Below, in pieces: positions 21,998 to 31,731 of a stretch of 64,000 nucleotides of DNA. The position numbers and the translations under genes are program-made. Where the stretch lies: assembly GCA_003856375.1 (NCBI GenBank), contig CP034120.1, positions 1,860,001 through 1,924,000 on the forward strand, in the 5' to 3' direction. The notes under the pieces were generated by a model. It saw nothing but the letters and a program-made list of their open reading frames with translations, ran no database searches and was not told where the DNA came from. The stretch is from Glaciecola amylolytica. GTDB lineage: Bacteria; Bacteroidota; Bacteroidia; Flavobacteriales_D; Crocinitomicaceae. The stretch's first letter is position 1. Each line of letters begins with the position of its first letter.

Positions 21998-23998
21998 ATG
22001 ATCTCTAAAATCGTTATTTCCAAATCACAAACTCCTTCAGAATATACTGTTTTCGTATCTGTTGATCTCTTTCAAGACGGAGAAATCGTCATTATCGAAA
22101 TCGGCCAAAAGTATTATTTTGCGGCATTTGATCATCAAAACAAATGGTATGCGCTGCAAATTCCGGCTTCTGAAAATGCATTCAACGGAGCAGTCAATAT
22201 TCCTTTAAAAGGAATTCTATACAACTACGAAAAACAATCTTTTACAGACGTAAAAAAAACATCAGCGACACCCAATCTGATCTCCGGAAACGGAACGTTG
22301 CAACTGACTCCCGGAACGGAAACCGATTCAAAAGCCTGGACCGGAAATCTGTTGGTGAAGAAACTAAAAGGTCCTTTTCAAAACAACCAATTGGTTGAAG
22401 TCATCGATCTGACTCTTCCCGTATATTATCTCGCCGTTCCAAACAGCAATGATGCGCACGATTCGCAAATACTTTCCATCAAATGGGAATATCAGTATAA
22501 TAACGATCCATCAACTGCTTTTAAAAACAGCAAGAGATCCGTTGTGGTAGAAAACGGGATCAAACAGTGTAAAATTGAATGCCAGTTTCATAACAGAAGT
22601 GAAATCGAGGAGGTCACACTTTATGCCTACTACAAAGCGAAAAGCCAGGATGTGCTTAAACGAACCAAAACACAAAATCAATCCAAAACCAGTGTAAATG
22701 ACGGTTCGTTGATCTGGTCATCGAAATTTTCGGTGGAAGAGCAAACCAAAATCCGTGAAATTTCGCAGCGGCTGCTGTTTGATCCGAATCATTTGATTGC
22801 AGCCATGGCTTTAGAAACCGGAGGCACCTTTGATCCGAAACTGGTTAATTCTTTGGGATATACAGGACTCATTCAAATCGGAAGTCAAGCCGCAAAAGAT
22901 ATAAACCGACGAAAAGGAACCAGCATCACTGCAGGTAAAGACGGGAATTTAGCAAAGATGTCGCGGTTGGAGCAGTTAACTTATGTGGAATATTACCTCG
23001 AACCATTTAAAGGAAAGCTAAATACTTTGGGAGACTTTTATCTCGCAATTCTGTTTCCGGTAGACTGCGGCAAGGGAAATCTTCCCGATCATGTGGTATT
23101 TGACAAGAATATCAAACCGGATCTTGATTCAAACGGTAACGTCATCAAAAACACCAAATGGCTGAGACAAAGAGCTTACGACCAAAACCCCTTATTTCAC
23201 AAAGAAAAGCCGGAACAAGGGAAAACATACGTTTGGGAAATCACGCAGGAAATCGAAAAATGGTATAAAAAAGGAGAATCCAATAAAGGAACTGCCATTC
23301 TCTCAGGAAGTGTGAATCAAACTGGTGGAAACTGGCATGACCCGGTTGATAATCCGAGATCGACCTTATACATGCAAAGCGGAGGCGGTGGTGAAAGCGG
23401 AAAACATTGGGGACTTTTCGGGAAAACAAGAGCCGGCAAAGCTCATACAGGCCTCGATCTGTTTGCTGTAACCGGAACAAAAATATACGCCTGTGCAGAC
23501 GGAACGGTTTATAATCGAAGATGGCATGGAGGTTATGGAAATACGTTGACCATCAAAGTAAAAGATGTTCAGGCTTTTCTGAAAAACAGAAAGAATTACA
23601 ACCTTCAATTTGAAAAAAGCGGAGAAATTCTGCAAGGTGCCCGCTGGAGTGATGCCAAAGAGATTTATTTGTTCTATGCCCATTTAGATTCCGTAAATCA
23701 ATATCATTTCGGAGAAGAAGTTAAATGTGGAGAAGTATTGGGTACAACCGGCAGATCCGGCGTAGTTGCAGGAACACGCGCTCCACATCTCCATTTCGAA
23801 ATATTCTGTGAATACGTGATGGCGGTTGGAACTCAATACCGCATTAATCCGGCTGCGTTCGTTCAGTACAAAGGCTACAAGGAGCAAAATGAAGCCGAAA
23901 AGAAAGAACAGGAAAATGTGAAAAATCAGGGACAAATCGTAGAAGTGAACGGCAAAGTGAAATTGAATTATGCCCATATGAAAGGGTTTGTGAAGTAA
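21998..23998 (+). CDS. Bifunctional peptidoglycan hydrolase: transglycosylase-like plus M23 endopeptidase, no signal peptide
   Basis: The protein has 666 residues in three parts. Residues 1-225 are beta-rich and unassigned. Residues about 240-430 resemble a phage-type lytic transglycosylase, with the likely catalytic Glu273 in AMALETGGTFDPKLVNS, then GYTGLIQIGSQA. Residues about 465-625 are an M23 metallopeptidase: HTGLDLF (His483, Asp487), YAHL (His562) and HLHFE (His597, His599). There is no Sec signal, lipobox or T9SS tail, so a specialised export route (phage-like tail or contractile injection) or cytoplasmic release is implied. It is not next to any structural injection genes here. It could be an antibacterial toxin or a cell-wall remodelling enzyme. 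Confidence 0.85.
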   Translation: MISKIVISKSQTPSEYTVFVSVDLFQDGEIVIIEIGQKYYFAAFDHQNKWYALQIPASENAFNGAVNIPLKGILYNYEKQSFTDVKKTSATPNLISGNGTLQLTPGTETDSKAWTGNLLVKKLKGPFQNNQLVEVIDLTLPVYYLAVPNSNDAHDSQILSIKWEYQYNNDPSTAFKNSKRSVVVENGIKQCKIECQFHNRSEIEEVTLYAYYKAKSQDVLKRTKTQNQSKTSVNDGSLIWSSKFSVEEQTKIREISQRLLFDPNHLIAAMALETGGTFDPKLVNSLGYTGLIQIGSQAAKDINRRKGTSITAGKDGNLAKMSRLEQLTYVEYYLEPFKGKLNTLGDFYLAILFPVDCGKGNLPDHVVFDKNIKPDLDSNGNVIKNTKWLRQRAYDQNPLFHKEKPEQGKTYVWEITQEIEKWYKKGESNKGTAILSGSVNQTGGNWHDPVDNPRSTLYMQSGGGGESGKHWGLFGKTRAGKAHTGLDLFAVTGTKIYACADGTVYNRRWHGGYGNTLTIKVKDVQAFLKNRKNYNLQFEKSGEILQGARWSDAKEIYLFYAHLDSVNQYHFGEEVKCGEVLGTTGRSGVVAGTRAPHLHFEIFCEYVMAVGTQYRINPAAFVQYKGYKEQNEAEKKEQENVKNQGQIVEVNGKVKLNYAHMKGFVK

Positions 23999-24146: not shown

Positions 24147-25640
24147 ATGAAAACATGCTTGACGATATTGCTATCGGTGATCTTTTATTCTATGGCCCAA
24201 GGTCAATACCGCTATCTTCGAAATTACAACGACGATGTTCACACACTCATTCCATGCCAGGATTCAACTTATTATGCCATATCCGTTCATCCCGGATGCG
24301 GAATCAATAGTTTTTCAATACATTATCTGGGCAGACAAGGGCAAGTAATCTGGTCGAAAGAATCAAACACCTGGTCAGGACATCTTTTTGACTTTAAAGG
24401 ATATACTGATGAAAACAATACCGTTACATTGATCTATTATTCCAATGGCAAAAACGGTTTGACGCGAATTGATCAAAACGGGAATGTTCTTTTCAACAAG
24501 GTGTTCAATCAAAGTACCTACAAAATGAGTACGATTACTCCTGCAACTGACGGCTTTTACCTAACCGGAAAGCAGAATGAATACTCTTCCTGGGATCCCA
24601 GTGTTCCCGTGCTTCTGAAAATGAACAATAACGGCGAAATTGTCTGGATCAAATCGTATACCATCCCGAATATGCCTCGTTTCCTTTTTCACGGTGTTGA
24701 ACCAATAGGGGATTCCCTTCTGATTGTTGGAAGCTACACGCAAACGCCTTCACCGGAAGTTACTTTTCCGTGCTTACTCAAGACTGACCTAAGCGGGAAT
24801 GTAGGCAGTAAATTCTACTACCGGATAGAAACGGTGGATGTGGACCGATACAAATTTGTAGAAGTTGACAGTCAAGATCCTGCATCCATTTACTTAAAGT
24901 TTTACGCATCAGCTGGTGTGGACGGAATTCTGAAACTCAACGCGCAATTGCAGCCTCTTTGGTGTCAGAATATTGCCGGCGAACTTGGGACTATTTGTGC
25001 TTCTTACGATGGAGGAGTTTTGTTCTCCACCGGAATGTCGCTGGATGGTGATATCATGTGTCTGAATCCACAGGGTACATTCACAGGTTCTAAAGCAACA
25101 AGTAGTTTATCGACTTCAGCCGTACCTTCCATGATTTTACGCCATGATTGCGGTTATCTGGTTGCTATTCCTTCAAGTTGGCCAAGCGATCGTTATGCCC
25201 ATGTTTCAAAGGATCAAACCTATTGCGGACCGATATCCGGAGATCAAACTCCCGTTTATCCAATCAATCCAGTCACACGACATCCAATCAGTATTACAAC
25301 ACAGAACACTGCAACAAGTACCTTCGGTCTGACCGTTCTTCCAGGAGTTTTCTCATCCATTTCCACAACTGAAACCATTGATTGTATTGAGGCTTATTCC
25401 TGCAATGGACCCTTGGGGATTTCCGAACAAAACTTTGCTCCGGATGCACTTTATCCGAATCCGGCAACAGACATTATTCACATCGAAACCAATGGCTCTC
25501 CTTTAACGATAAGCGATGCCGCCGGATCGGTTGTTTTCAGCGGAACTTTACAGAACGGAGAACTGAACATTCGTTTTCTGGCACCGGGACTATATCATGT
25601 GAAGAGCAATCAGCAACGCGGACACTTCATTAAATATTGA
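24147..25640 (+). CDS. T9SS-secreted protein of unknown function
   Basis: The 497-residue protein has a signal peptide ending in MAQGQ and a C-terminal T9SS type A sorting domain of about 70 residues (ALYPNPATDIIHIE, SDAAGSVVF, LAPGLYHV). The body has repeating short beta units with GxYTxxxN-type patterns (TLIYYSNGKNG, FYLTGKQ, LLIVGSYTQT, GGVLFSTGM), as in beta-propeller-like surface proteins. It is expected to be exported through the outer membrane and attached to or released from the cell surface. No catalytic motif is seen. Confidence 0.85.
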   Translation: MKTCLTILLSVIFYSMAQGQYRYLRNYNDDVHTLIPCQDSTYYAISVHPGCGINSFSIHYLGRQGQVIWSKESNTWSGHLFDFKGYTDENNTVTLIYYSNGKNGLTRIDQNGNVLFNKVFNQSTYKMSTITPATDGFYLTGKQNEYSSWDPSVPVLLKMNNNGEIVWIKSYTIPNMPRFLFHGVEPIGDSLLIVGSYTQTPSPEVTFPCLLKTDLSGNVGSKFYYRIETVDVDRYKFVEVDSQDPASIYLKFYASAGVDGILKLNAQLQPLWCQNIAGELGTICASYDGGVLFSTGMSLDGDIMCLNPQGTFTGSKATSSLSTSAVPSMILRHDCGYLVAIPSSWPSDRYAHVSKDQTYCGPISGDQTPVYPINPVTRHPISITTQNTATSTFGLTVLPGVFSSISTTETIDCIEAYSCNGPLGISEQNFAPDALYPNPATDIIHIETNGSPLTISDAAGSVVFSGTLQNGELNIRFLAPGLYHVKSNQQRGHFIKY

Positions 25641-25943: not shown

Positions 25944-27053
25944 ATGCTAAAAATTGACATGAAGTACGTGCGTTCGATTCATGATGCAATCGAAACACTG
26001 GAAATTGGCGGAGACGCTGCAACGCAAACTGCTCACGACACGCTCATCAAAACACTTCACACCGCCATGCGTCTCGAAGCTTCAACCGTTCCTCCGTATT
26101 ATGTTGCAGCCTGGAGTATTCAAGACTCTGACGGCTATGAGAATGCAGCAATCCGTGAGCTGGTTTCCAGTATATCCAGAGAGGAAATGCTCCATATGAT
26201 GTCCATCGCCAATATTATCTCTGCCACCGGAACCGTACCTGAGATTGCTACACGGGAAATTGTGCTGGACTGGGGAACCGATAAACTTCCTGTAGGCGGC
26301 GACCTTGTTCCTTCGCTTAGTCCTTTTTCAATAGAAATTCTGACAGACCTGTTCATGGAAATCGAGCAACCGCTGGATCCTGTACATTATGTTGTCGTTG
26401 AAGCACGAGCAAAAGCACGGGGAATCGAGGTGCACTATGCCACGATCGGAGAATTTTACGATGCCCTTATTGTCCTGATCAATACATTTCCTGAAGATCC
26501 GTTTGCGAATGGCGAAAGTCACCCCCAAATCGATGTTTCCAACGACACGCGCTTCAGCAGGATTGGACATGATCCCATCAAGAACTTTATTGTCAAAAAC
26601 AAAAAACATGCAATCGAACTGCTGAACTGGATCGTAGATCAGGGGGAGGGAAGCTCTGCCGGACCACTTGATGGAAATGGTGATCCTGCACATTATTACC
26701 GGTTCGCTGAGATCTATAAAGGAGGGAAACTGGTTAAGGATATTTCCCAGCCACTCGGCTATGCCTATGATCGCGCGCGGTTCCCGATCAACTGCGATTT
26801 CACAAAGATTATGCAATTCGCATCCAATCCGAAAATGAAAGATTTTAGCCCGGAATCAAGACAATACAAGGGGTTAAACGCATTCAATCAGAAGTACAAA
26901 CTCATGTTCGAGCAGCTGCAGCAATTCTACGAAGGTGCAGGAGATCAGTCCATCAGCGACTCTATAAATTCGATGAACAGCATGGCCCGGCTGGTACCGC
27001 AACTGTTCGCCTGCACGCCTCCCGTGTGCCCGTCATTCGAATGGGTCGATTAA
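25944..27053 (+). CDS. VioB-type ferritin-like domain protein (PF12902)
   Basis: The 369-residue protein has the ferritin-like fold found in VioB and related iminophenyl-pyruvate dimer synthases. Likely iron ligands are Glu45 in HTAMRLEASTVPPYYVAAW, Glu81 and His84 in SREEMLHMMSIANIISATG, then Glu and His residues in the second half. A C-terminal HYYRFAEIYKGGKLV motif is typical of the family. It is the first gene of the four-gene cassette; the LodA-like gene follows after 64 bases. It could use the imine or hydrogen peroxide made by the oxidase. There is no signal peptide. Base composition is visibly G+C-richer than the flanks. Confidence 0.75.
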   Translation: MLKIDMKYVRSIHDAIETLEIGGDAATQTAHDTLIKTLHTAMRLEASTVPPYYVAAWSIQDSDGYENAAIRELVSSISREEMLHMMSIANIISATGTVPEIATREIVLDWGTDKLPVGGDLVPSLSPFSIEILTDLFMEIEQPLDPVHYVVVEARAKARGIEVHYATIGEFYDALIVLINTFPEDPFANGESHPQIDVSNDTRFSRIGHDPIKNFIVKNKKHAIELLNWIVDQGEGSSAGPLDGNGDPAHYYRFAEIYKGGKLVKDISQPLGYAYDRARFPINCDFTKIMQFASNPKMKDFSPESRQYKGLNAFNQKYKLMFEQLQQFYEGAGDQSISDSINSMNSMARLVPQLFACTPPVCPSFEWVD

Positions 27054-27117
27054 TGTGGGGAACACCATTTCTTCAGTATTCACAAGCAATTCCATAAATA
27101 ACCTAAAATGAAACACT

Positions 27118-28383
27118 ATGAACATTTCTGATGTAAAGTACTTCAAGATCCATCCCTCAATCGGGGTGGCACGCATTGCAAACAACGAAGATTACTTCGA
27201 GTTCTTTAGCGCACATGCGAAAAATTTCTCACCTTCCCGGGACTATATGTCGATGGGCGGAGCCTCTGATCCCGATCCGGGAAAACAACGTATAAAGCGT
27301 CAGGCTGTGCAGTTCACAATCTTTGCCTATGGTCCGAACAACGAGTTGCTCGGAAAGCTGCATGAGCTCTTTCCTGACGCACAGGTAAAATGGTCCGGCA
27401 ATGTCGGTAATCGCAAGCTCTACAATTACTCCATGAAAAAGGGAGGCGGAACGATTCCTTTCATCACCGCGCAAGCCACAGCCGACAGACCACAAGTTCA
27501 TGCCGAGCTGAACGGTAAAAATCCGTGGAATGATCGTGAACTTATCAATCTGGGAATCATTACCGGAGAAGGTCTCTATATTCCGCCAAAAGGTGGGGTA
27601 GTACGAAAAAATACTGGTTCTCCGATTGATCCGTACCCTGCAAATGCGAATGGCAGCCTGGAATCTACTGACACATCCTGCGATGGTCAGATATCAGCGG
27701 TGATTCTCAACAGTGGAACCCCGGTTACAACACCGATCATCCCAGCCTGGGTGGTTGCTACCCCAGGAAAGCATGCCCTGACTCTGAACCCTGTCATTAC
27801 TGAAAATATGCGCGATAATTTCGGAGATTTCCTGCCCACAAACAACAATGCAAACAGTGATTGGCTTAAAGCGACGAGCAGTATGCTTGGAATCACCGGT
27901 CCAATTTACGATCCGACCGGACTCGACGTACCGATGATGTCGACTTTGAACGCCGATTACAACCCCGGAATGGAGGTAAATCTTGGTTCTCAAAGTACCC
28001 GCATCGAAAACGGGGCCGTTCCGAAGAACTTTTTCTATCCGCGCGGAACCAATCACATTGATCGAAACGAGATCAGGGTGGAACAGAAAGCGGCAACAAA
28101 CGGTGCCATTCCCGGACAGCTAACCAGTGGACTCTGCTCCACATGGCAAGGAGACATGTCGGCTTGTCTGAACTACTGGACAGCAGAAAACCCTAACAAA
28201 GCCTACAGTCCGGATAATCAGGTACAAATTGTAATCTATAAGGAGGGTCATCCGGACCAAATGATGAGCAATCCGGAAGAAATCAACAAGGATATGGATT
28301 TCAGGGGAATTGTGGATTACAAGCCTGAAGGTGACAACATTCGTTTAAATCTGGTATATGACCCCAATCGTCCCGTGACATGA
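27118..28383 (+). CDS. LodA-like CTQ-dependent oxidase (short form)
   Basis: The 421-residue protein begins with a LodA-family N-terminus: KIHPSIGVARIANNEDYFEF, then IKRQAVQFTIFAYG and an SGNVGNRKLYNY stretch, where the family normally has WxVxxANxKA. Near the C-terminus the cofactor region reads WQGDMSACLNYWTAENPN, matching the family's WQxDxxSC and WxAxxPN; Cys350 and Trp354 are the predicted cysteine tryptophylquinone partners. LodA oxidises the lysine side-chain amine and GoxA glycine, giving H2O2. The protein is shorter than LodA as I remember it (650-730 residues). No signal peptide. The stop overlaps the radical SAM start (ATGA). Confidence 0.8.
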   Translation: MNISDVKYFKIHPSIGVARIANNEDYFEFFSAHAKNFSPSRDYMSMGGASDPDPGKQRIKRQAVQFTIFAYGPNNELLGKLHELFPDAQVKWSGNVGNRKLYNYSMKKGGGTIPFITAQATADRPQVHAELNGKNPWNDRELINLGIITGEGLYIPPKGGVVRKNTGSPIDPYPANANGSLESTDTSCDGQISAVILNSGTPVTTPIIPAWVVATPGKHALTLNPVITENMRDNFGDFLPTNNNANSDWLKATSSMLGITGPIYDPTGLDVPMMSTLNADYNPGMEVNLGSQSTRIENGAVPKNFFYPRGTNHIDRNEIRVEQKAATNGAIPGQLTSGLCSTWQGDMSACLNYWTAENPNKAYSPDNQVQIVIYKEGHPDQMMSNPEEINKDMDFRGIVDYKPEGDNIRLNLVYDPNRPVT

Positions 28384-29774
28384 TCCCATCAACAGATCAT
28401 TCCGCGACCCGACATCCTGGTTTTCACACTTTCAGAAGTGCCAGCCGTGATTTGCTGCTTGAGGTAGCAACCGGACGTATCATGTATGTCGAACCTTCGA
28501 TTTTGCAAGCGATTGAAAATGCAGCGATCACTGGAAACATACAGCAAGCAGCACTGATGGCCTCACTCGCAGGAATCAGAACAACCAATGAACCGGAAAC
28601 TGCCCCTCCAAAGGCAGTTTCCGTTCGTTCCTTTTCTCTGGCGATTGCTCAAAAATGCAACCTTGGCTGCACGTACTGCTATGCCGAACAAGGAACATTT
28701 GGTGGTCGTCCGGACAATATGCCGCCGGAAATTGCCCGATCTTCCGTTGACCGGCTTTTCATGGACACGCAGCCTGATGAGCCAATTACAATCGCTTTTA
28801 TGGGAGGTGAACCGTTTTTTAACCGTCAGGCATTGTATGAAACAACAACTTACGCAGCAAAAAAAGCGGAAGAAGAGGGGCGCACGGTATCTTTCAGCAT
28901 CACAACCAACGCTACACTTATCCGGTCGGAAGATGTAGAATTCCTGCAAAAATACCGGTTCACCGTAACAGTAAGTGTAGACGGAATCGGGGATACCAAT
29001 GATACGCTCAGACCTTATATTTCTGGAAAAGGAAGCTTCACTCAGGTACAGGAAAAGCTAAAACTCCTGTTCGGGATTCCCAACCGCAACTTCCGGGTGT
29101 TGGGACGAGTTACCGTTACTCCGCAAAACCTTGGCCTGACGGAAACCTTCCAGGGTTTACTCGATTTGGGATTCGATTCCGTGCAGTTTTCCCCTATGCT
29201 GAAATCTCCAAGCGGGAAGCAAGAAATGTCCGGGAAGGATTTCGATTCCTTACTGGAACAGCTTATCAGTTGTGGAGAAATCTTTCGCACCGGATTTATG
29301 GAGAAAAAACTAATGCCATTGCAGAACGTGTTGAGCACTCTGAAGCGCATCCATACGTATGAGCGCGAAATGTATCCATGCGGAGCTGGTGGCGGTTATA
29401 TGGGCGTTTCCGCAGAAGGAGAATTGTATGCCTGTCACCGTTTTGTCAATGACGAAGCCGGACATATGGGGGATTTGAAAACAGGTGTAAACCCGGTCAA
29501 ACAGGCTCAATGGCTCCAAGACCGTCATTTAGGTGCTCAAAGTGCCTGTACGGATTGCTGGGCACGCTATCTGTGTAGCGGCAGCTGTCATCACGAAGTG
29601 ATCAAGCGTGGCCGTCCGGCATGTGATTATATCCGCGGGTGGCTGCATTATTGTCTCGGATTGTACGTCGACCTATACGAAGCCGATTCTACGGGATTGC
29701 GGTTGCTACTGGGCGACAATCAAGAAATCATTGCTATTTCGGAAGAACAAAATGGAGCCGGACTTCAGTTCTGA
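28380..29774 (+). CDS. Radical SAM/SPASM peptide-maturation enzyme (QhpD-like)
   Basis: The 464-residue protein has an N-terminal domain (residues 1-80, with HTFRSASRDLLLEVATGRIM, as in SPASM maturases that recognise a substrate peptide), then the radical SAM motif KCNLGCTYCYAEQG (Cys93, Cys97, Cys100), GGEPF, and a C-terminal SPASM domain with YPCGAGGGYMGVSAEGELYA, then CHRF, CTDCWARYLCSGSCHHE and a late Cys, enough for two extra [4Fe-4S] clusters. QhpD makes Cys-to-acidic-residue thioether links in quinohemoprotein amine dehydrogenase. Translation is coupled to the LodA-like gene through a 4-base overlap, so that protein is the most likely substrate. Confidence 0.88.
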   Translation: MIPSTDHSATRHPGFHTFRSASRDLLLEVATGRIMYVEPSILQAIENAAITGNIQQAALMASLAGIRTTNEPETAPPKAVSVRSFSLAIAQKCNLGCTYCYAEQGTFGGRPDNMPPEIARSSVDRLFMDTQPDEPITIAFMGGEPFFNRQALYETTTYAAKKAEEEGRTVSFSITTNATLIRSEDVEFLQKYRFTVTVSVDGIGDTNDTLRPYISGKGSFTQVQEKLKLLFGIPNRNFRVLGRVTVTPQNLGLTETFQGLLDLGFDSVQFSPMLKSPSGKQEMSGKDFDSLLEQLISCGEIFRTGFMEKKLMPLQNVLSTLKRIHTYEREMYPCGAGGGYMGVSAEGELYACHRFVNDEAGHMGDLKTGVNPVKQAQWLQDRHLGAQSACTDCWARYLCSGSCHHEVIKRGRPACDYIRGWLHYCLGLYVDLYEADSTGLRLLLGDNQEIIAISEEQNGAGLQF

Positions 29775-31143
29775 TATCTGTGTTATCGGTGGTGGTCCGG
29801 CAGGATCGGTCATCGCACGGCAACTAGCAAAGCTGGGGCATAGCGTATGCATGGTAGAGAAAGCTGCTTTCCCAAGGCCGCACGTGGGGATCTGCCTTTC
29901 AGAGACAACGGGGGAATTACTTGCTTATCTTGGGATGCTTGAGGAAATTACCAGAACAGCAGCACTCCGACAACGAAAGAACGTGCTCGTAAAGTGGGAT
30001 ATGGATGACGCCATCCTGACACATCAGCCGGGAATGAACGTGGATCGTGGGGAATTTGACAGGATTCTGATCCGGAACGCACAATCTGCCGGAGTCAGAG
30101 TATTTCAACCTGCAGAAAATGTATCCATGCAGCGACTTTACAGCGGTGGATGGAAAATTAGCTTTAAAACGGAAAAACAGACAATTTCCATACGATCACA
30201 GTTCCTCGTGGATGCTTCAGGCCGTTCCAATGCGTTGCAGAAAAAATTCGTTCGTTACGCACCGGCACTTTTCGCTCTGCACGCTCATTGGGAGTTGGGA
30301 TCGGAACCTTCTTGCGACGGATCGATGGAAGCAGGTGAGTCATCCTGGCTATGGACAGCTTATCTGGGAAATCGAAAAGCCATGGTCTCCTTATATACTG
30401 ATCCCAAAAGCGTGGCAGAAAGCGGTGGATCTATAGAGGATTTCTATCTGAATTCTTTGAAGCAATTCTCCACATTGAACCAATTTGACCGGATTTCCAT
30501 TGTGGACAAGATCATCGGGTGTGATGCCAGTAGCCGCTACAGTACAGAAGCAGCGGGAAGAGATTTTATCAGAGTCGGTGATGCCAGTCTCTGCGTGGAT
30601 CCGATGGCTTCCCAAGGTATACATCTGGCAATCAGTTCAGGTATACAGGCGGCAGTTGTCGTCAACACATTATTAAGGAGTCCCGAAACTGCAGCTGTGG
30701 CACTTGATTTTTACAGCAACAGTCAGCAAGGTCAAATAGATCGATTCGGTAAACGCACAGCCGAAGAGTATTCCCGTGCATTAAAATATTGGAATGGAGC
30801 TTTTTGGCAGAACCGGTCTATGAATGTTGCTAAAACAGAGCGTACTTCCGAATCAGTTTCGAAACCAGAAGCAGACCGCATAGTTCAATTGTGCCCTGAA
30901 GCGCAATTTCTATCAACTCCTGTCATGCAGGATGACTTTATTGTTTCTCTACCAGCGCTACATCATCCCGGACTCCAACAACCGGTAGCATATTTGGGAG
31001 GAGTCTATATCGTGTCGTTGCTTGAGCAATTGCAAAGCGAGATGGCTGTACAGGAAATCACCTCGTTATGGGCCATGAATCTCTCGGATGAATTAAGTTT
31101 AAGCATCTTAGAATGGCTTTGGCAGCATCGAATTTTGATTTAA
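29752..31143 (+). CDS. FAD-dependent oxidoreductase (LodB/QhpG-like)
   Basis: I chose the ATG at 29752 (463 residues): the dinucleotide-binding motif DICVIGGGPAGSVIARQLAKL starts seven residues later, and the frame upstream has no family features. Other FAD motifs: VDRGEFDRILI, LVDASGRSN and the flavin-contact GDASLCVDPMASQGIHLAISSG, all typical of the tryptophan halogenase/monooxygenase-like flavoproteins. LodB and QhpG, needed for tryptophylquinone formation in LodA and QhpC, belong to this group. Overlaps the radical SAM gene by 23 bases. Last gene of the cassette. Confidence 0.88.
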   Translation: MEPDFSSDICVIGGGPAGSVIARQLAKLGHSVCMVEKAAFPRPHVGICLSETTGELLAYLGMLEEITRTAALRQRKNVLVKWDMDDAILTHQPGMNVDRGEFDRILIRNAQSAGVRVFQPAENVSMQRLYSGGWKISFKTEKQTISIRSQFLVDASGRSNALQKKFVRYAPALFALHAHWELGSEPSCDGSMEAGESSWLWTAYLGNRKAMVSLYTDPKSVAESGGSIEDFYLNSLKQFSTLNQFDRISIVDKIIGCDASSRYSTEAAGRDFIRVGDASLCVDPMASQGIHLAISSGIQAAVVVNTLLRSPETAAVALDFYSNSQQGQIDRFGKRTAEEYSRALKYWNGAFWQNRSMNVAKTERTSESVSKPEADRIVQLCPEAQFLSTPVMQDDFIVSLPALHHPGLQQPVAYLGGVYIVSLLEQLQSEMAVQEITSLWAMNLSDELSLSILEWLWQHRILI

Positions 31144-31178
31144 GAAATAGGTTTTGTACGAGAATGCTGGTGATATTT

Positions 31179-31270
31179 CCCACAGATGCGCAGATATTGG
31201 TGGCGCTTACCAGTCGCCACAATTTGACCAGCGAGCCCGGTAGGCGAGCATTTATCTGCACATCTGTGGG
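31179..31270. repeat. Long imperfect inverted repeat downstream of the quinone cassette
   Basis: Arms of 18 bases (31179-31196 and 31253-31270, CCCACAGATGcGCAGATA and its complement) differ at one position. The 56-base interior has a second hairpin, GTGGCG / CGCCAC. It ends in GGGG rather than a T-run, so it is not a simple terminator. It might be a small repeat-type element or a structured RNA. No open reading frame inside. Confidence 0.6.
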
Positions 31271-31365
31271 GAGTTACATCCTTTTTTGATGTAAGTGATT
31301 AGTATCTAAACATCCTTATTCTGAGAAATCATCAATTAAACTCTCGGACAAGTCAATAAATAAAA

Positions 31366-31731
31366 TCAGTACCCCAACCAAACCAAGTTACAATCACTTT
31401 CTTCAGTATTAAATTTTCCTTCCCAAAAGACAGTATTGTTTTGGTCTACAATTTTATAACTGTGCTCTGCAGATTCGTTTCTATACATTTTATCCGTATA
31501 TAAAAATTGTCCCTCTTTACATTCCGGAGCAGACGTTTTATATTCCGAAACATCTACCGTCGAAACAAATTCACCATCGACATACAAAGTCAATGTAGAT
31601 ACATCAGTAAATTCCATCAAATCATATGATGTCATGTAATCAAACCAAAAGGATTGATATCCATGATACTTTTCCTTTTTACACGCAGTAAAAAAAAGTC
31701 CCAAAAGGGATAAGATGATTAAATTTTTCAT
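31366..31731 (-). CDS. Small lipoprotein, paralogue of 8144-8506
   Basis: The protein has 121 residues: lipoprotein signal ending FFTAC (Cys17), then the same layout as its paralogue: KYHGYQSFWFDY, LTLYVDGEFVSTVDVSEY, CKEGQFLYTDKMYRNES, YKIVDQNNTVFWEGKF and a late Cys. The two Cys in the mature part are at equivalent positions in both, suggesting a conserved disulfide. Function unknown. The short reading frame at 31741-31824 lies just upstream and may be part of the same transcript. Confidence 0.75.
   Translation of the reverse strand: MKNLIILSLLGLFFTACKKEKYHGYQSFWFDYMTSYDLMEFTDVSTLTLYVDGEFVSTVDVSEYKTSAPECKEGQFLYTDKMYRNESAEHSYKIVDQNNTVFWEGKFNTEESDCNLVWLGY

Follow-up and report, generated by a model that had tools for sequence, protein, structure and literature searches.

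A predicted cysteine tryptophylquinone cassette of Glaciecola amylolytica joining a compact LodA-like protein to radical SAM and QhpG-type maturases and a ferritin-like partner

The 64,000-nucleotide stretch of Glaciecola amylolytica analysed here (contig CP034120.1, positions 1,860,001 to 1,924,000; hereafter the window) carries on its + strand a cassette of four co-directional genes (25944-27053, 27118-28383, 28380-29774 and 29752-31143) that would encode a LodA-family cysteine tryptophylquinone (CTQ) enzyme matured by a QhpD/QhpG-type pair of enzymes rather than by LodB alone, together with a ferritin-like, possibly di-iron, partner. Judged from sequence comparison, we give this reading a probability of about 0.75. 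The genes and the residues predicted to take part are the following (aa, amino acids; SAM, S-adenosylmethionine).

25944..27053, + strand: ferritin-like protein, 369 aa (PF12902, 158 bits); candidate ligands E45, E81, H84, E141, E235 and H250
27118..28383, + strand: compact LodA-like protein, 421 aa (LodA_N, 43.7 bits); predicted CTQ enzyme and substrate of both maturases
28135..28137, + strand: codon of Cys340, six residues before the conserved Asp; predicted thioether donor, at the position of QhpC Cys27
28153..28155, + strand: codon of Asp346, equivalent of LodA D512 and QhpC Asp33; predicted thioether acceptor
28165..28167, + strand: codon of Cys350, equivalent of LodA Cys516 and QhpC Cys37; predicted CTQ cysteine
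28177..28179, + strand: codon of Trp354, equivalent of LodA Trp581 and QhpC Trp43; predicted CTQ tryptophan
28380..29774, + strand: radical SAM/SPASM maturase, 464 aa, PapB/QhpD-like, with CNLGCTYC at residues 93-100
29752..31143, + strand: QhpG-type flavin monooxygenase, 463 aa (NF049967 QhpG, 269 bits, cut-off 240)

The radical SAM enzyme would link Cys340 to the methylene carbon of Asp346 through a thioether, the QhpG-type flavoprotein would add two oxygens to Trp354, and Cys350 would join the ring of Trp354, oxidation yielding CTQ. We infer these steps because of the motif and of the precedent of QhpD and QhpG: QhpD is described as the enzyme making the thioethers of QhpC, Cys27-Asp33 included (PMC8172795), and QhpG as dihydroxylating the Trp of QhpC after QhpD crosslinking, the three proteins making a complex (PMC7876137). 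The mature enzyme would oxidise a primary amine or an amino acid, and the ferritin-like protein, its usual partner, would probably act either on O2 or on what this oxidation releases, an imine or peroxide. Exact crosslinks are thus predicted for the cassette family, and these can be checked by mass spectrometry.

Organisation and recurrence of the cassette

All four reading frames are intact, and they are spaced by a 64-base gap, a 4-base overlap and a 23-base overlap. ATG 29752 was taken as the start of the flavoprotein because homologues start at the equivalent site, the longest frame opening at GTG 29608. The G+C content of the cassette is 47.9%, versus 39.7% for the remainder of the window, and the highest value among 121 other (overlapping) 5.2-kb windows, 42.25%, lies below it. 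This layout and the raised G+C had been described in an earlier note made from the letters alone and both hold, as do its four family assignments, for which profile searches gave PF12902, LodA_N, Radical_SAM and QhpG, and the pairing of a LodA-like protein with two types of maturase, a radical SAM enzyme resembling QhpD and a flavoprotein resembling QhpG. The recurrence that the note proposed to look for could also be seen, and LodA_N above its cut-off is in keeping with a CTQ family for the second gene, as it had supposed.

The four-gene unit is real and exceeds chance, because two other organisms carry this set with its gene order unchanged. A pattern-based scan of one genome per species (84,980), which detects close relatives only, revealed two full-length LodA-like relatives, one in a Planctomycetaceae metagenome-assembled genome (MAG; locus L003) and one in Flavobacterium sp. 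SLB02 (L004). These and the window cassette, with four genes in the same order and on the same strand, constitute the form named T1, whose identity to the window cassette is 55-64% for three genes and 46% for the flavoprotein. The LodA-like protein is 58% identical to that of L003 and about 59-60% to that of L004, and the mean column identity in the T1 alignments, spanning Planctomycetes and Bacteroidota, is 76% (LodA-like) and 75% (radical SAM). T1 is rare: the window's own copy was the only full-length match in 395 genomes of its phylum (single-sequence query) and in 249 of its order, and the one match in 392 genomes of the MAG's phylum and the one in 299 Flavobacterium genomes are both known members. 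No relative was seen in viral contigs with the patterns used, and plasmids gave nothing for T1 beyond a single N-terminal LodA match.

A longer form (T2), with LodA-like proteins of about 765 aa, was reached via short matches to LodA-like residues 332-362. Five Flavobacterium loci (L036-L040) carry the ferritin-like, LodA-like, radical SAM and flavoprotein genes on one strand, and this order is also found in L041, from the phylum of the Planctomycetaceae MAG. The genome of the window holds a complete T2 cassette of its own (L106 7400-14037; G000:C1 2047899-2054536), about 124 kb past the window end and 157 kb from the T1 cassette, so that both forms coexist; this copy was the sole T2 match in 296 sampled genomes of the phylum. 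A tblastn search of plasmids gave 20 records with T2-like matches, including Mycetohabitans, Rhizobium, Bradyrhizobium, Embleya, Streptomyces and Nostoc, of which 16 were read, and a radical SAM match adjoins the LodA-like gene in 16/16 of these loci (LodA-like query), that of L062 being truncated. With proteobacterial and actinobacterial plasmids among its carriers, the gene set extends over several bacterial phyla.

Nine plasmid loci (L050-L057, L064) have the LodA-like protein split in two chains, the second one bearing the CTQ motif and preceding the radical SAM and flavoprotein genes; in L054 the N-terminal part lies in two frames, and L064 lacks its start. A ferritin-like gene precedes the split LodA in six of them (L050-L054, partly L064) and lies on the opposite strand in L055 and L056. 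In a third form (T3; L058-L061, L063, L065) a LodA-N-like gene and the radical SAM gene are followed by the LodA C-terminal block fused to a ferritin-like domain, with PF12902 above cut-off in 6/6 fusion proteins and LodA_C in 1/6; L063 bears a second ferritin-like domain fused ahead of its LodA-N-like part. The T3-like Azospirillum locus (L062 7977-11483) consists of a LodA-N-like gene, a short radical SAM gene and then an IS3 transposase. The earlier note did not have the longer, split and fused forms, the additional cassette elsewhere in this genome or, described below, a crosslink motif like that of QhpC.

The active-site block and its maturases

The window protein scores 43.7 bits against LodA_N (PF17990, cut-off 26.3), and the NCBIfam equivalogs GoxA and LodA give 36.6 and 23.5 (cut-offs 750 and 600). 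No LodA_N match is shown by the L036 protein, the sole T2 protein scanned whole, which gives 22.5 bits with LodA_C; among seven relatives only L050 (25.2) and L063 (25.6) pass the LodA_C cut-off, and L061 and L065, scored separately, lie under it. The block PGQLTSGLC340STWQGD346MSAC350LNYW354TAENPN, nearly invariant across the three T1 proteins, contains the residues aligned with D512, C516 and W581 of LodA (PGDLTKRMACPWQAD512FFNC516), where W581 is described as the CTQ tryptophan (PMC4417212); Trp354 was assigned via the W-x-A-x-x-P pattern and not from a structure. The residues at the CTQ positions are retained in T1, T2 and T3, and a PGxE motif lies upstream of the block in all block-bearing proteins listed and in all four QhpC.

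In QhpC the CTQ is reported to be formed by Cys37 and Trp43, with thioethers Cys7-Glu16, Cys27-Asp33 and Cys41-Asp49 (PMC8172795); formation of the three thioethers is reported to lower the QhpC mass from 14,875.5 to 14,869.4 (PMC7876137). The QhpC block from four plasmids reads LCQPME[AS]DLY[GA]C[AS]DPCWWPAQV[AP]D and that of T2/T3 LC[AS]PWxxD[FY]xxCxC[YFH]YWA[AS]x[RHK]PD, the spacings C27-D33 (6), D33-C37 (4) and W43-D49 (6) being equal in both; the C37-W43 spacing is 5 in T2/T3 versus 6 in QhpC, and the middle Cys is displaced. Four of these residues (first Cys, Asp, CTQ Cys, Trp) are retained in T1, which has neither the second Cys nor the last Asp, and the compact form of the window is predicted to keep one thioether (C340-D346) together with the CTQ (C350-W354).

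The Cys six residues before the Asp (D-6, counting from the equivalent of LodA D512) is present in 24/24 loci with a radical SAM gene and in 0/28 without one, where 'with' requires a same-strand gene that scores >100 bits against the cassette profile and lies no more than 4 kb away; L106, added after the survey, is one more D-6 Cys locus with radical SAM. The loci counted are not independent, because near copies occur among them (L036-L040, L055/L056, L053/L064, L049/L074). Manual curation took out two spurious matches (L045 at 186, L080 at 4186) and a duplicate (L080 at 8947); L069 and L062, in which the motif was not found, are uncounted, and 6 of the 35 plasmid records with a LodA match were read. 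A looser scan of the 28 yielded one extra radical SAM gene, at L070, which is the other-strand T2 cassette of the same genome. CxC occurs in 21/21 T2/T3, 0/3 T1 and 0/28 others, and an Asp at W+6 in 21/21 T2/T3 and 0/3 T1. The pattern C.{5}D.{3}C.{0,4}C.{0,3}W.{5}D, picked after the data were seen, matched 25 of 5,517 six-frame open reading frames (832,478 residues), namely the 21 T2/T3 and 4 QhpC, with 0 matches in 20 shuffling rounds. The donor Cys residues, and not the Cys-Trp spacing, are the putative marks of radical SAM maturation.

Three further candidate marks were discarded or weakened. A short Cys-Trp spacing was rejected, since a spacing of 5 also occurs where radical SAM is lacking, in L044 and L045 and, by eye, in L085 and L088, and so was the acceptor Asp at W+6, which is present in L090 (script) and in L085 and L088 (by eye). 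A Cys before PGLE is weak as a universal third donor: it occurs in 18/21 T2/T3 (not L053, L057, L064), and a Cys 10 residues before the PGLE Glu, common in relatives without radical SAM, speaks against it.

The radical SAM protein of the window gives 57 bits with Pfam Radical_SAM and 16.7 with SPASM (below its cut-off, 21.5), and reaches the cut-off neither of PapB (266 vs 340) nor of QhpD (264 vs 453); the T2 protein tested (L036) gives 302 with QhpD and 275 with PapB, both under cut-off. When plasmids were searched with the cassette protein, cassette members matched at identities of at least 37%, and QhpD/PeaB (30-35%) came next among named proteins, a truncated Azospirillum member being placed lower by coverage; of the 53 plasmid radical SAM records, 4 QhpD regions and 3 outgroups were read besides the 16 cassette loci. 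In a tree with 20 cassette rows (L041, L053, L054, L062, L064 and L106 left out) support was 100/100 for T1, 82/98 for T1+T2 and 89/67 for all cassettes, and cassettes plus QhpD were separated from three long outgroups at 95/91, with long-branch warnings.

Against the QhpG model NF049967 (cut-off 240) the T1 flavoproteins score 269 (window), 272 and 236 (L004) and that of L036 (T2) 257; thus three of the four pass the cut-off and one falls slightly below. NCBIfam LodB and GoxB give 151.6 and 119.3 for the window protein and their cut-off, 400, is not reached. The three best Protein Data Bank matches are two halogenase entries (103 and 100 bits) followed by 7ctq, a peptidyl tryptophan dihydroxylase (94 bits). 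In a tree of 14 T1/T2 and 3 T3 rows, T1+T2 group at 81/87 and join QhpG and one T3 row at 81/66, LodB being separate at 61/79.

The ferritin-like protein matches PF12902 at 158 bits (gathering score 22.3). Residues E45, E81, H84, E141 and H250 are identical in 21/21 aligned relatives and E235 in 18/21, and these conserved candidate ligands look like a di-iron site; the 21 sequences come from all three forms and from Hymenobacter, where the gene adjoins a LodA that has no radical SAM, and leave out L041, L053, L054, L064 and the first ferritin-like gene of L063. A C-terminal VCPSFEW tail is common to all three T1 proteins and is not found in T2. Since T3 fuses the two, we argue that the ferritin-like protein may cooperate with the quinoprotein. 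Of the 28 LodA-like genes that lack radical SAM, only that of L088 showed a ferritin-like match when scanned with the cassette profiles; L088 is a Hymenobacter plasmid (5498-8488) whose ferritin-like gene lies near a 494-aa LodA/GoxA gene; fungal lodA genes are likewise reported to neighbour PF12902 genes (PMC4417212). The VioB model gives 20.1 bits in the window protein (cut-off 1250), and 10 to 69 bits across five proteins, confined to the ferritin-like region.

The interpretation of the earlier note as a whole is partly supported. The LodB/QhpG-like flavoprotein that it proposed proved to be closer to QhpG type (269 bits, over 240) than to LodB type (152 bits, cut-off 400). Of its VioB-type ferritin-like protein the PF12902 assignment stands; the VioB match is weak (20 bits against 1250), and neither the dimerising enzyme nor the small-molecule pathway that it suggested is borne out.

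Competing readings and relation to known systems

Several observations weigh against a LodA-type CTQ enzyme with QhpD/QhpG-type maturation and a ferritin-like partner. LodA_C (PF18417) gives 14.9 bits in the window protein, under its cut-off of 25; LodA itself has a Cys at D-5 (C507), and two of the three QhpC thioether donors are missing from the window protein. The three T1 radical SAM proteins score slightly higher with PapB (261-266) than with QhpD (257-264), no cut-off being passed, and the radical SAM tree that places them beside QhpD holds no PapB row; the key nodes of both maturase trees are only middling (82/98, 89/67, 81/66). In T3 the flavoprotein match is weak in L061, L063 and L065, lies on the opposite strand in L059 and was not found in the L058, L060 and L062 stretches, nor was a ferritin-like gene in those of L057 and L062. 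The AlphaFold models are unusable (mean confidence, pLDDT, 41 for the LodA-like and 35 for the ferritin-like protein). Finally, the alignment of QhpC with T2+T3 (19.05, with 2/100 shuffles as high) is not significant, and scores without shuffle calibration were 17.4 with T1+T2+T3 and 14.4 with T1 alone.

The short length of the window protein (421 aa vs 726 reported for LodA; PMC4417212), its LodA_C score and the slight lead of PapB, a ranthipeptide maturase, would suit a different scenario, in which the radical SAM enzyme and the flavoprotein install another modification (a different Cys/Trp crosslink, or hydroxylation of a Trp) and the LodA-like protein serves as carrier or as protein-borne precursor. 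We consider it unlikely, as T1, T2 and T3 keep the CTQ-position residues, T1 and T2 carry a QhpG-type flavoprotein and the PGxE motif is retained in all block-bearing proteins listed.

It is quite improbable that the flavoprotein alone builds the CTQ, in the manner of LodB, while the target of the radical SAM enzyme lies elsewhere, for instance in the VCPSFEW tail of the ferritin-like partner. That tail is invariant in the three T1 members, LodB is the sole maturation factor described for LodA (PMC4417212), and no radical SAM gene is present in the operons of 28 LodA-like genes surveyed here, whose products may contain CTQ; T2, however, lacks the tail though its radical SAM is homologous, and the Cys at D-6 follows the presence of radical SAM. 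A shortened LodA operon gained by transfer and no longer functional, which a very short LodA, the scattered occurrence (249 genomes of the order gave 1 full match) and the deviant G+C might suggest, is very improbable in view of four intact frames, mean column identities of 76% and 75% between two phyla and a nearly invariant active-site block.

The predicted CTQ enzyme of the cassette resembles LodA/GoxA with LodB/GoxB in its LodA_N match, its PGxE motif, a PGxLT..WQxD...C..WxAxxP block aligned with D512, C516 and W581 and an adjoining flavoprotein maturase gene, and differs from them in its compact size (421 aa), the Cys at D-6, the radical SAM gene in the operon, the QhpG type of the flavoprotein and the ferritin-like gene that leads the operon. 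With quinohemoprotein amine dehydrogenase (QHNDH; qhp operon with QhpC, QhpD and QhpG) it shares both kinds of maturase and the C-x5-D-x3-C spacing, to which T2/T3 add the second Cys and W-x5-D; unlike QHNDH, the Cys and Trp reside in a LodA-family protein and not in a gamma subunit of ~110 residues (leader included), T1 lacks two donor Cys, and the scan of three neighbours named neither an exporter nor a protease. In fungal group V, PF12902 genes also lie beside lodA and lodB, but there lodA and lodB are in opposite orientation, and 'Radical SAM' is absent from the text of that source (PMC4417212). The likeness to VioB of the violacein pathway is limited to the ferritin-like region of a model with 1003 positions and a cut-off of 1250 bits, and a dimerising activity is without support in the cassette. 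PapB/PapA ranthipeptides have a radical SAM enzyme of similar score and reported Cys-Asp thioethers (PMC8172795), whereas the cassette has no small precursor gene between its genes and adds a flavoprotein and a LodA-like protein. Among the matches listed from open-licence literature (titles and abstract starts) no LodA-like protein with a radical SAM maturase and no LodA-QhpC homology was found, in line with the earlier note, which knew of no described system with this exact set; closed papers may hold them.

The relation of QhpC to the LodA block was examined with hhalign, using shallow alignments of four QhpC sequences and of sets of LodA-family blocks. With all 51 blocks the score was 37.5 (probability 92.7, 0/150 column shuffles as high, reversed 9.3), and with the relatives without radical SAM it was 31.05 (probability 74, 0/150 shuffles as high). 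The alignment favours a shared origin for QhpC and LodA C-terminal blocks at large; homology with T2/T3 alone was rejected as not significant, and T2/T3 as nearest kin of QhpC would not follow from the alignment by itself. The shared Cys pattern could instead be drawn out by shared maturases. A tentative idea, to which we give somewhat less than even odds, is that a single ancestral CTQ domain gave rise both to the LodA/GoxA oxidases, now treated as a separate solution, and to the gamma subunit of QHNDH, the cassette family being a surviving intermediate in which T2/T3 would have two or three QhpC-like thioethers around the CTQ (in one chain, split or ferritin-fused), the window form would be reduced to one, and T3 would be a two-centre enzyme with CTQ and di-iron sites. 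Tryptophylquinone enzymes have been described as convergent on the cofactor through divergent strategies (PMC7876137). The cassette hints that two supposedly separate quinone enzyme families are related, and by combining a LodA-type protein and a QhpD/QhpG-type pair with a crosslink motif of QhpC type it makes their common origin testable.

Surroundings of the cassettes

There is no room for a separate precursor gene between the cassette genes, the 303 bp 5' of the cassette contain no short + strand frame with both Cys and Trp, and the short + strand frames 3' of it fall inside a dispersed repeat; none of the short flanking frames, judged by eye, is a Cys/Asp-rich precursor. The three neighbours scanned (21998-23995, 24147-25637 and 31366-31731) gave an M23 peptidase, a secretion tail and nothing, respectively, and no QhpA or QhpB gene is among these three, the rest of the window genes lying outside that scan. 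A search of the own genome for the QhpC gamma subunit via PF08992 gave no match, and its positive control likewise gave none anywhere. A promoter scan yielded 15 sites (8.8 in shuffles) and a terminator scan 7 (5.4 in shuffles), and neither set was used. In the genus comparison made for an empty site, the upstream gene had no clear counterpart except one 35% match. The repeat lies directly 3' of the cassette:

31170..31280, no strand assigned: dispersed repeat, ~100 bp, with 18-nt inverted arms; possible insertion mark

It has 31 matches in its own genome, 15 of them covering at least 85 of 111 bases, with one copy 26 bp 3' of the T1 cassette and another (L106 6950-7060) ~340 bp 5' of the T2 cassette.

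Elsewhere, an FMP-type peroxidase gene (L036 2384-3937; NF040571, 616 bits), for whose name no paper was found in the open-licence literature, lies 5' of a Flavobacterium T2 cassette, and a Dyp-type peroxidase domain is encoded ahead of a Streptomyces T3 cassette (L058 6692-7960). A LanC-like protein (L003 15-1175; PF05147, 170 bits) is encoded upstream of the Planctomycetaceae cassette on the same strand. Tyrosinase genes occur near L055 and L057, a multicopper oxidase gene near L057, and peptidase genes near L052 and L060 (serine and C25) and L055 (S8); a protease would recall QhpE. Both radical-SAM-type and ordinary LodA genes are found on plasmids of Mycetohabitans (3), Bradyrhizobium barranii (2), Embleya (2) and Microvirga (1). 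In the plasmid records read, the cassette genes bear only the labels 'hypothetical protein', 'radical SAM protein', 'ferritin-like protein' and 'tryptophan 7-halogenase' or 'FAD-dependent monooxygenase', and under labels this generic a coupled enzyme set may go unrecognised.

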